Shown one piece after another: positions 42,990 to 45,447 of a stretch of DNA of 64,000 bases. The notes under the pieces are model-generated. The model saw only the letters and a list, made by a program, of their open reading frames with translations. It searched no databases and had not been told where the DNA came from. Source of the stretch: an uncultured Acidimicrobiaceae bacterium (GTDB taxonomy: Bacteria > Actinomycetota > Acidimicrobiia > Acidimicrobiales > UBA10347); contig CAJJAG010000002.1 in the NCBI GenBank assembly GCA_905182135.1, forward strand, positions 1-64,000, given 5' to 3'. The first letter of the stretch is position 1. Every line of letters begins with the position of its first letter. The position numbers and the translations under genes were made by a program.

Positions 42990-43027
42990 GCGGAAGCCGC
43001 CAACCCCGGAGGGCTGGCGGCTTCCGC
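42990..43027. terminator. Strong bidirectional rho-independent terminator
   Basis: A perfect 13-bp stem (GCGGAAGCCGCCA 42990-43002 with TGGCGGCTTCCGC 43015-43027) encloses a 12-nt GC-rich loop. TTTT follows on the plus strand, and TTTTG follows on the minus strand. It ends the secreted Cys-repeat gene 36 bp after its stop and could also stop read-through from the PIG-L gene. Confidence 0.92.
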
Positions 43028-43062: not shown

Positions 43063-44187
43063 TCAGCCAGTGAAAGCTGGAACCGGAGCAGCTACTGCAG
43101 CAGCAACGGCCACGACGCAGCTTGCAGCGTCAGCTGAAAGCACACCCTGGGCGCAGGATGGACCAGTAGTTACGCCTGATGTTGCAGCGCCGAGGTCACA
43201 GAGTACATCGGTACCAACAGCAGCGGGAGTACCAGCTGCACACGAGTACAAGATGCCACCAGCGGTAGCTGAGAAGCCAGAGGTCGTATCGCAGGTGTAA
43301 ACCGCTGGTGTGGCAGCTGACACGTTAAGGGTGCCAGCGGCACATGAGTAAGTAGTGGCAGCGTTAGCTACAGGCGAGTAGCAGCCACCAGCAGGTATTG
43401 CAGTTGTGCCAGCTGCACACGCTGTCGTGACGACAACGGCGGAGGCTGCTGCGTACGTTACACAGGTAGCGCCAACGAGAGCCCCAGTAGCGCAAGCGTA
43501 AGCCGTGGTTGAAGTAGTAATGGTTCCGGTCACCGTGCAGAACGCAGGAGTGGTGCCGACGATGGCAGTGAAGACACCTGCGGGGCATGCAAGAAGAGTG
43601 GCGTCTGGTGGCGTGACGTTCTGGCAGGTAGTCGCTGTGTACTGGTTGTAGGCAGGGACCGTTGTAATAGAGCAGGTCTTAAGAGCGTCTGCAGCGACGG
43701 CTGTTTGACAGCCGAGGGCTGTAAGAGTGGCCGATACCAAGCAGGTGCCTCCGGTAGATGTCGAGGTCGCAGCTACGGCGTTGTAACAAGCTCCAGCAGT
43801 GCCAGAGGCGCCGGCTGGGCAAGCGGCAACTGACGCTGTTGCGGGCCCATTTGCGGCGCACACGTTGCTAGCATTTGCCGAGAAGCCAGCGGGACAGGCG
43901 GTGGTGCCAGCTTGAGCCGTAGCCGTTGCTGCGACCCAGCAGTTCGCCCCACTTGGGGACAAGAAAGCGGGAGCAACGCAAGAGTTACCAGCGTCAAAGG
44001 TTGTAACAGAAGATGCTTGTGAGCATTCCGTACCAGCTGCGTTGAGTGTGAAGCCAGCTGGGCAAGATGCGTCCTGCGCGTCTGAACTTGAAGCAGTCGC
44101 AATGAACAAGCCCGAAAGCAGCATTGAAAGTGCCGCAAGAACCAAGAGCGCAGCCTTGGTTGTTGAGGTCTTCTTGGTTGTTTCCAC
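43063..44187 (-). CDS. Secreted cysteine-pair repeat protein
   Basis: 374 aa. GTG 44185-44187 follows the Shine-Dalgarno AAGGAAG at 6 nt. A signal peptide (AALLVLAALSMLLSGLFIATASSSDA) leads to a mature part rich in Ala and Thr with 24 Cys in 12 pairs. Each pair follows C-P/A-x-G, then 8-14 residues, then C: for instance CPAGFTLNAAGTEC, CPAGASGTAGAC, CAAGTTAIPAGGC. Linkers of about 10-17 Thr/Ala/Val residues lie between. Each pair probably forms a small disulfide loop. No membrane anchor, no enzyme motif. A structural cell-surface protein is likely. A hairpin-rich leader and the strong terminator suggest high, controlled expression. Confidence 0.82.
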   Translation of the reverse strand: METTKKTSTTKAALLVLAALSMLLSGLFIATASSSDAQDASCPAGFTLNAAGTECSQASSVTTFDAGNSCVAPAFLSPSGANCWVAATATAQAGTTACPAGFSANASNVCAANGPATASVAACPAGASGTAGACYNAVAATSTSTGGTCLVSATLTALGCQTAVAADALKTCSITTVPAYNQYTATTCQNVTPPDATLLACPAGVFTAIVGTTPAFCTVTGTITTSTTAYACATGALVGATCVTYAAASAVVVTTACAAGTTAIPAGGCYSPVANAATTYSCAAGTLNVSAATPAVYTCDTTSGFSATAGGILYSCAAGTPAAVGTDVLCDLGAATSGVTTGPSCAQGVLSADAASCVVAVAAAVAAPVPAFTG

Positions 44188-44673
44188 GGAAACTTCCTTT
44201 TCTTAGAGATACCGACGCGACCACTTTGTGGCGCATACACCAGGAGTTTCCTGGGTGCCGCCCCCTAGCTACACAAAACACGCAGCTCGGACTAACGACG
44301 AGCAGACCATAACACCACCAACACAACCTGAGAAGCCCCCACACCAACCTGTCACACATACGTAAACAAACCCCCAATAATCGTTACAAAGACGCGGAAG
44401 TTGATTATTGGCACGTGCAGGTCAAGGCATTTCGCTTTCAGGCCCGAACGCCAACTTCTAACAGGAACGGCGCCTCGATCCCACCGGTTGCAACGATCGA
44501 GGTGTCGATGCGCGACCCGCAGCCACAGAACCCGGACGCTCAAATATTGCAATTACGTGACAGGCCGGGTGTCGCTGTCGACATATTTGTCGGTAGCGAA
44601 TCCTAAGAATCGCCGGAAACGCAACGTTGTTCATAGAGAACCCGCCGTAGAGACACGGCGATACGGTGACGTT
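44188..44673. other. Divergent promoter region
   Basis: About 485 bp between the secreted Cys-repeat gene and the membrane protein. It holds the leader hairpins (44217-44257) on one side and the TACGGT box (44662-44667) of the membrane gene on the other. No further gene can be supported; the plus-strand frame from 44401 is an upstream extension of the membrane gene frame. Confidence 0.5.
44217..44257 (-). promoter_or_regulatory. Hairpin pair in leader of Cys-repeat gene
   Basis: Two adjacent hairpins in the transcript: CCAC-AAA-GTGG flanked by GCG/CGC (44217-44234), and CACCCAGGA-AAC-TCCTGGTG (44238-44257, one bulge). They end about 30 nt before the GTG start codon and leave AAGGAAG free. 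No known riboswitch was recognised. Confidence 0.5.
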
Positions 44674-45447
44674 GTGATTCAAAATGGCCGCGCGTCTAGC
44701 TCGGCGACACCTTCGCAATTCTCGCTCCAATCCGCGGTTCCGGTCCTGGCGTTCCTGGCAGTCAACCGCATTGCTGGACTGCGCTGGGCGGTGCTAGCAG
44801 CAACGCTTGGCTCTGTTGGGGTAGCCGTGGACCGGCGACGCAGAGGCCAACCCCTGGGAAAATTCATGCCGGTCGTTACTGCCGCGGTGGTTATCCGCGG
44901 CGTGATCGGTATCGCCACGGGTAGCGAAACGGTTTATTTCGGCCTCGGGATCGCAACCAAATACTTGATTGCTGCGGTCCTGATCGGTTCTGCAGTCATT
45001 GGGGTTCCCCTTGCTGAGCGGGGCGCCCCATTTGTTATGCGCATCCCTCAAGAAATGGCTGAACATCGGCTATTTCGATCAACGATGGCGATAATCACTG
45101 CTATTGCCGGGCTGTATTATGTGACCAGCGCGTCGTTCGACATCTGGTTGTTTCGCCGAAACAGCGTCGAAGGCTTTGTTTTGTTGCGTTTCTTTGCGAA
45201 TTGGCCGTTGAGCGCAGTGACATTGCTCGCCATCTTGATCGTCCTGCAGGTTCGACTACAGAAAATTCCCGGCATACCACCTGTCGCTACCTTGGTAGAA
45301 GAACGCCGAAGCCTGGTCACCAATGACCATGACAGCACTGCTACTGACAGCACTGCTACTGACAGCCCTGCTACTGACAGCCCTGCTACTGACAGCCCTG
45401 TTGTTGGCGGCTCTGCTGCGGACACGAAGCCCCAGGCCGATGACTAG
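44674..45447 (+). CDS. Multi-pass membrane protein (DUF3159-like)
   Basis: 257 aa from GTG 44674, 6 nt after TACGGT; the frame is open to 44401. About six helices: SAVPVLAFLAVNRIAGL, AVLAATLGSVGVAVD, FMPVVTAAVVIRGVIGIA, YLIAAVLIGSAVIGVPL, STMAIITAIAGLYYVTS, LSAVTLLAILIVLQV. The layout and the RxRGQPLG, GSETVYFGLGI and LRFFANWPLS motifs resemble DUF3159 proteins. The tail is a 5-residue repeat (ATDSP/T). Function unknown. Confidence 0.72.
   Translation: MIQNGRASSSATPSQFSLQSAVPVLAFLAVNRIAGLRWAVLAATLGSVGVAVDRRRRGQPLGKFMPVVTAAVVIRGVIGIATGSETVYFGLGIATKYLIAAVLIGSAVIGVPLAERGAPFVMRIPQEMAEHRLFRSTMAIITAIAGLYYVTSASFDIWLFRRNSVEGFVLLRFFANWPLSAVTLLAILIVLQVRLQKIPGIPPVATLVEERRSLVTNDHDSTATDSTATDSPATDSPATDSPVVGGSAADTKPQADD
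45331..45405. repeat. 15-bp tandem repeat, five copies
   Basis: GACAGCACTGCTACT (with later units GACAGCCCTGCTACT) occurs five times, the last only partly, encoding Asp-Ser-Thr/Pro-Ala-Thr at the tail of the membrane protein. In another frame the same bases read LLLTA repeats, which create a spurious hydrophobic open frame. Confidence 0.9.

Follow-up and report, generated by a model that had tools for sequence, protein, structure and literature searches.

The 64,000-nt window analysed here (positions 1 to 64,000 of contig CAJJAG010000002.1 from an uncultured Acidimicrobiaceae bacterium) carries on its minus strand the open reading frame that an earlier note had placed at 43063..44187, read from 44187 to 43063 with a GTG start and a TGA stop. 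The frame encodes a secreted Cys-pair repeat protein of 374 aa, which is kept in two other species of the genus. Because the orthologs of these two species are conserved at the protein level, sequence comparison identifies the frame as a real gene. The protein occurs as a single copy in its own genome, which is 60% complete. Neighbouring genes in the window match the SpoU methylase and DUF3159 families of Pfam, and the orthologs in genomes G001 and G005 both adjoin TrmH-, hemolysin III-, and phosphatase-like genes, as in the window (names given by eye). A 15-bp tandem repeat at 45330-45400 (4.7 copies, 98%) encodes the TATDS/PATDS repeat that ends the neighbouring DUF3159 protein.

The protein begins with the hydrophobic N-terminal signal sequence proposed earlier (residues 1-38, 44074..44187, minus strand; cleavage site placed by eye), which is conserved in the G001 ortholog. 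Identity to this ortholog amounts to 31 of the first 37 residues in the signal region vs. 119 of 312 (38%) in the mature part. Only 17 of 31 third bases in the signal region are the same as in G001, and since the third bases are not conserved, the constraint acts on the protein. Such a distribution, with the signal peptide far better kept across species than the mature protein, is the reverse of the usual one.

The Shine-Dalgarno sequence AAGGAAG, described before as strong, is located at 44193..44199 on the minus strand, 5 nt upstream of the GTG, and is identical in all three orthologs. It is preceded by a 5′ leader at 44206..44263 (minus strand), in which the previously noticed hairpins appear as two hairpins and a short closing stem. 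These 58 nt are conserved among the three orthologs, and when the base pairs were compared by eye in a hand alignment, one pair showed a double change (G-C to A-U) and two others a change of a single partner. The fold z-scores in the three orthologs were -1.4, -2.6, and -0.8, and no Rfam family reached the gathering score. Given the modest z-scores and the silence of Rfam, a structured leader is no more than plausible. The leader pattern was found solely upstream of the three orthologs when 298 genomes of the order were searched. A riboswitch was considered and rejected on the same grounds, namely the missing Rfam match, the restriction of the pattern to the three orthologs, and the modest fold z-scores. 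On the other side of the gene, approximately 35 nt beyond the stop codon, begins the terminator-like inverted repeat (42990..43027) that had been taken for a bidirectional terminator, and its properties agree with that description. It has 17-nt arms that are 94% complementary, a folding energy of -43.6 kcal/mol (z -9.0), and short T runs on each strand.

Cysteine pairs and predicted fold

The mature protein contains 24 Cys in 12 pairs, the count given before, between residues 42 and 357 (43117..44064, minus strand). Analysis of the Cys spacing gave successive gaps of 9-16 residues. When 24 Cys were placed at random 20,000 times, the variance was never as low and the minimum gap never as large as observed, so the Cys residues are periodic as judged from the sequence. 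The pairing as such stands, although closure occurs after 9-16 residues and not after 8-14, and the proposed C-[PA]-x-G opening holds for 9 of the 12 pairs rather than for all. The linkers between the pairs are Thr/Ala-rich, as claimed. Alignment of 20 two-pair segments without overlap, taken out of those available, showed all four Cys to be invariant in 20/20. The earlier note had recognized no described family, and sequence searches of the repeats against Pfam, NCBIfam, and PDB likewise gave no match above the cut-off.

Structure prediction, which had been suggested as a check, was informative for the small unit and not for the whole. The AlphaFold model of one two-pair unit (46 aa) consists of two beta-hairpins, one per pair, with a mean pLDDT of 70, i.e., moderate confidence, whereas the model of the whole protein (pLDDT 37) is useless. 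A Foldseek search returned nothing at E ≤ 0.001. We infer one disulfide per hairpin, formed within the pair. The signal sequence and the Cys pairs together support the view of an exported disulfide-type repeat protein.

Relatives of the protein

A search with the window protein matched 3 of 59 genomes including its own, all of one genus. With a three-row profile, 7 of 298 genomes of the order matched, and 6 of these are members of the genus. The profile search for the repeat that the earlier note had advised was run over 296 genomes of the phylum, where the own genome was the sole match. A scan of genome contigs with the single protein yielded no relatives outside the genus. When relatives outside the genus were sought by an alignment scan, only MAGs corresponding to G001 and G005 were obtained (records CALDYC010000026.1 and CALLPT010000324.1/288.1, uncultured Acidimicrobiales MAGs). 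By these searches, the Cys-repeat family appears to be limited to its own genus.

Genome G001 encodes a full ortholog of 443 aa, counted from the aligned start, with 28 Cys, and G005 encodes the N-terminal part of an ortholog at a contig end. A much longer relative in G005 (G005:C288, 189-3737 of its locus) has 1182 aa and 76 Cys in 38 pairs, together with a Pro-Thr linker and a carboxypeptidase-regulatory-like domain match below the cut-off. Small paralogs of two pairs are present in all five other genomes of the genus (G001:C101, G002:C435, G003:C140, G004:C151, and G005:C67). The length of the chain across the relatives is thus 2, 12, 14, and 38 pairs.

Another Cys-rich exported repeat protein, G151:C23, belongs to another family of the order and matches the profile weakly (E 9.7e-4). 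It has no FTG end, and by eye its neighbour is integrase-like. A Tad pilus-like cluster lies after the ortholog in G001 (G001:C26, 9358-18016; names by eye) and includes a 1112-aa protein with a LysM match below the cut-off, a CpaF-like ATPase, and TadB/TadC-, TadE-, and CpaB-like proteins. A general link between the Cys-repeat family and this cluster was rejected because the cluster is found solely in G001 and is absent at the window.

The C-terminal PxFTG tail

The earlier note had described the protein as lacking an anchor. This is correct with regard to a membrane helix, but a conserved C-terminal PxFTG tail had been overlooked. Comparison of the ortholog, the paralogs, and the pattern matches delimits a pentapeptide P-A-F-T-G at 43066..43080 (minus strand), directly before the stop codon. 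The window protein ends in ...AAPVPAFTG and the G001 ortholog in ...AAPTPAFTG, while the small paralogs end in PTFTG (three), PSFTG (one), and VVFTG (one, in G003, without the P). The 76-Cys protein of G005 does not end in FTG.

The tail was sought in DNA as [VAGED]-P-x-F-T-G followed by TAA or TGA, with the reversed pattern as a control. The counts are undercounts because the pattern covers neither TAG stops nor tails with a different residue in the sixth position, and the control is imperfect, reaching about half of the forward count outside the order. Within the genus there were nine matches in five of six genomes, against none for the reversed pattern. Seven of the nine end real frames, and the other two end frames of 28 and 13 codons. 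Four of the seven real frames encode Cys proteins. The other three encode unrelated proteins in which an internal membrane segment is combined with a Pro-Thr linker; two of these three were scanned, and one has a BON domain. The window protein is the single convincing carrier in its own genome, at 60% completeness. In the order, 85 matches occurred in 33 of 198 genomes vs. 18 control matches in 18 genomes. The matches were bunched in a few genomes (25, 9, 7, 5, and 4), and no genome had more than one control match. Family f53 gave 237 matches in 34 of 37 genomes and four with the reversed pattern; the genomes without any match were G580, G591, and G598. G580 (genus g53) is 100% complete, and with up to 25 matches in its relatives it represents a natural loss. 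In the phylum outside the order, after 22 rows of the same order were set aside, 36 matches vs. 17 for the control were found in 274 genomes, never more than two per genome.

Proteins carrying the tail

Carriers in family f53 were sampled by taking one locus per newly seen genome (the first listed match), which gave 27 loci with 28 tails. Frames of at least 189 codons are ended by 25 of these tails, and the other three end frames of less than 90 codons that are open to the contig edge. A Sec or Tat export signal was recognized by eye in 20 of the 25 frames and is lacking in two (L216 and L218), while three (L225, L226, and L228) start beyond the sequence covered. Among loci of the order, which were partly chosen as rich in matches, 42 of the 62 distinct tails belong to frames of at least 90 codons, compared with 3 of 16 at loci outside the order. 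Pfam matches of 19 carriers included GH10 (two), GH30, PhoD (two), secretory lipase, PI-PLC, subtilase, and metallophosphoesterase, as well as kumamolisin propeptide, WD40-like and lactonase-like propellers, BON, and Ig-like domains; three of the 19 had no Pfam match at 1e-4. The enzyme carriers (GH10, GH30, PhoD, lipase, PI-PLC, and protease) are from other Acidimicrobiales families.

The motif also emerged without any constraint when all gapped tripeptides within six residues of the C-terminus were counted for 335 ORFs in 356 kb of G583 (contigs with matches). Combinations of P(-5), F(-3), T(-2), and G(-1) ranked first, with counts of 11, 11, 10, and 10. FTG ends were found in 8 of 99 ORFs with a hydrophobic N-terminal segment vs. 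2 of 236 others, and there was one near variant ending in VFAG. The 400 kb examined in G057 contain 369 ORFs, of which 4 have an FTG end, always as PKFTG; three of the 4 belong to the 80 ORFs whose N-terminus is hydrophobic. For G180 (247 kb), one of 237 ORFs ends in FTG, with none among the 55 exported according to the start calls used. The carriers are therefore a small part of the exported proteins and are unevenly spread, as seen in G057 and G180.

The consensus of 78 distinct tails is [ED]-P-[VIL]-[VA]-P-[ASKT]-F-T-G, in which P, F, T, and G were fixed by the pattern, and in 50 of the 78 a run of at least eight T/S/P/A/G/D/E/N residues stands shortly before the motif. No membrane helix follows PxFTG; the proteins stop at the G. 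The window protein combines the two features by which a tagged protein would be defined, i.e., an export signal and P-x-F-T-G as the last five residues. On the sequences compared, this tail is common to unrelated exported proteins.

Proposed function

When exported proteins of unrelated folds share one fixed, free C-terminus preceded by a flexible linker, they show the pattern expected of an address label, and the occurrence of the PxFTG tail on unrelated exported proteins suggests addressing or retention and not simple release. We hypothesize, with about even confidence, that the window encodes a disulfide-stapled surface or matrix protein with a new C-terminal sorting or retention tag. The protein would be exported as a chain of small beta-hairpins, each with one disulfide staple and separated by flexible Thr/Ala-rich linkers, and the length of the chain would be free to vary among relatives. 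Its role would be structural, as a stalk or matrix. The free tag, with the consensus [VA]-P-x-F-T-G-COOH and usually located behind a Thr/Ser/Pro/Ala-rich stretch, would mark unrelated exported proteins in several Acidimicrobiales families. The most likely function of the tag is to send these proteins to the cell envelope or to hold them there, for which a dedicated machinery may read it. Alternatively, the tag could affect stability or be recognized by a protease.

A more specific proposal, to which we lean less than to its opposite, is a new sorting system of the Acidimicrobiales. Its substrates could be of any fold and would end exactly in P-x-F-T-G-COOH, with neither a helix nor a C-terminal domain. 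A specialised sortase or a transpeptidase/ligase would read the free C-terminus and thereby attach both secreted enzymes and the chain of Cys hairpins to the envelope. To our knowledge, a membrane helix or a folded domain is part of all known C-terminal sorting signals. In the PEP-CTERM and MYXO-CTERM families, a short C-terminal signal is likewise common to unrelated exported proteins of one genome, but these signals carry a transmembrane helix and a basic tail, neither of which is found in the PxFTG proteins. The C-terminal domain of Type IX secretion is likewise a helix-free tag on many exported enzymes, but it is a folded domain of Bacteroidota, whereas the tag in Acidimicrobiales has five residues. 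In the open-licence PMC literature, we found no published description of a PxFTG C-terminal tail, and searches there for C-terminal sorting signals in Acidimicrobi- and actinobacteria and for a C-terminal motif of secreted Ilumatobacter proteins gave nothing. If the proposal is true, enzymes such as GH10, GH30, lipase, phosphatase, and protease would carry their address in nothing but five C-terminal residues, a compact label to which current annotation is blind because HMMs cannot capture so short a motif. From sequence, one could then list the cell-bound secretome of a rarely cultured order. The Cys-hairpin protein itself would be a new length-variable disulfide scaffold and an entry point to the tag.

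Alternative explanations

As defined in PMC5148588, a cell wall sorting signal consists of a pentapeptide, a hydrophobic segment, and a basic tail. Substrates with LPXTG or, in class E, LAXTG resemble the tagged proteins in that they are exported and have a T-G-ending C-terminal pentapeptide, often after a Pro/Thr-rich region. In contrast, the tag reads P-x-F-T-G and not L-[PA]-x-T-G and ends at the G. The window protein, with PAFTG, has neither an LPXTG/LAXTG pentapeptide nor the hydrophobic segment with basic tail. Judged by its sequence, PxFTG is not a canonical sortase signal.

It might still be a sortase signal without a membrane tail, such that the T-G bond is cut at the emerging C-terminus, the glycine is released, and the Thr is joined to the cell wall. 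We regard this as unlikely, though it is the strongest of the rival readings. The scissile pair would be the same as in LPXTG, and the Thr/Pro-rich region before the tag is like wall-spanning linkers. Sortases (PF04203) are encoded in all 21 genomes comprising the own genome, with two matches, and its relatives, and 11 more were positive among 13 further genomes; the two exceptions are G038, which has no pattern match, and G205, which is absent from the pattern table. G156 has sortases and five tails and no credible LPXTG match, the best being an NhaA-like membrane protein (by eye). In G057, the sole sortase gene contains an in-frame TAG, and a frameshift or stop separates five of nine tails from their genes (three are intact in the sequence covered and one is ambiguous), while none of the tails examined in G180 is detached. 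Among 16 genomes, G057 alone had no TIGR01167 match above the cut-off. However, this co-decay concerns one genome and was partly judged by eye. Moreover, many sortase-bearing genomes have no tags, and the L of sortase signals is replaced by P in the tag, followed by a variable residue (A, S, K, T, R, or Q). Both kinds of signal also coexist, since the same genus and G180 have their own L[PA]xTG substrates of the ordinary kind, with a helix and an Arg tail (LAQTG, LAYTG, LPETG, and LAETG in the genus; LPYTG in G180 and G129).

The TAG codon in the sole sortase match of G057 (G057:C41:128410-131802) stands where the sister genome G180 has Glu. Among 73 ortholog-like pairs of G057 and G180, six were flagged, which by eye look like mis-set starts or antisense frames, and the genes of G057 do not seem to be broken in general. 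Recoding of stop codons in G057 was rejected; the flagged stops are TGA or TAA, mostly near such mis-set starts or in antisense frames, and the stop in the sortase is TAG.

The other rivals to a tagged, disulfide-stapled envelope protein are improbable. Following the earlier note, the protein could be an unanchored, freely secreted disulfide-laddered filament or adhesin, for which the tail would be incidental. The export signal, the regular Cys pairs, and the lack of a membrane helix agree with this, but the ortholog keeps the tail up to its final residue and the paralogs keep almost all of it, whereas the mature part is much less conserved, and the tail recurs on unrelated exported proteins. 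Equally improbable is that the tail serves quality control or turnover instead of sorting; C-terminus-specific proteases and PDZ-type factors do read fixed free C-termini, but a tail mostly on exported proteins and usually behind a long flexible linker is more typical of envelope attachment.

It is likewise doubtful that the repeats have a known fold, as divergent members of the EGF-like domains. The repeat signature C-x-x-G-[FY]-x-L-x-x-D-x-x-x-C resembles the C5-C6 hairpin of EGF, and the form CPxG[FY]xLxxDGxxC is common to the repeats and complement-type EGF (Pfam cEGF, PF12662). Weak matches to cEGF were obtained for 3 of the 20 segments (best E 1.5e-4) and to FXa_inhibition for 2 of 20. 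An EGF domain has six Cys, paired 1-3, 2-4, and 5-6, whereas the repeats have two evenly spaced Cys per unit and no Foldseek counterpart. The full-length proteins score 13.1 bits (window) and 17.2 bits (G001 ortholog) with cEGF, against a gathering cut-off of 26.6.
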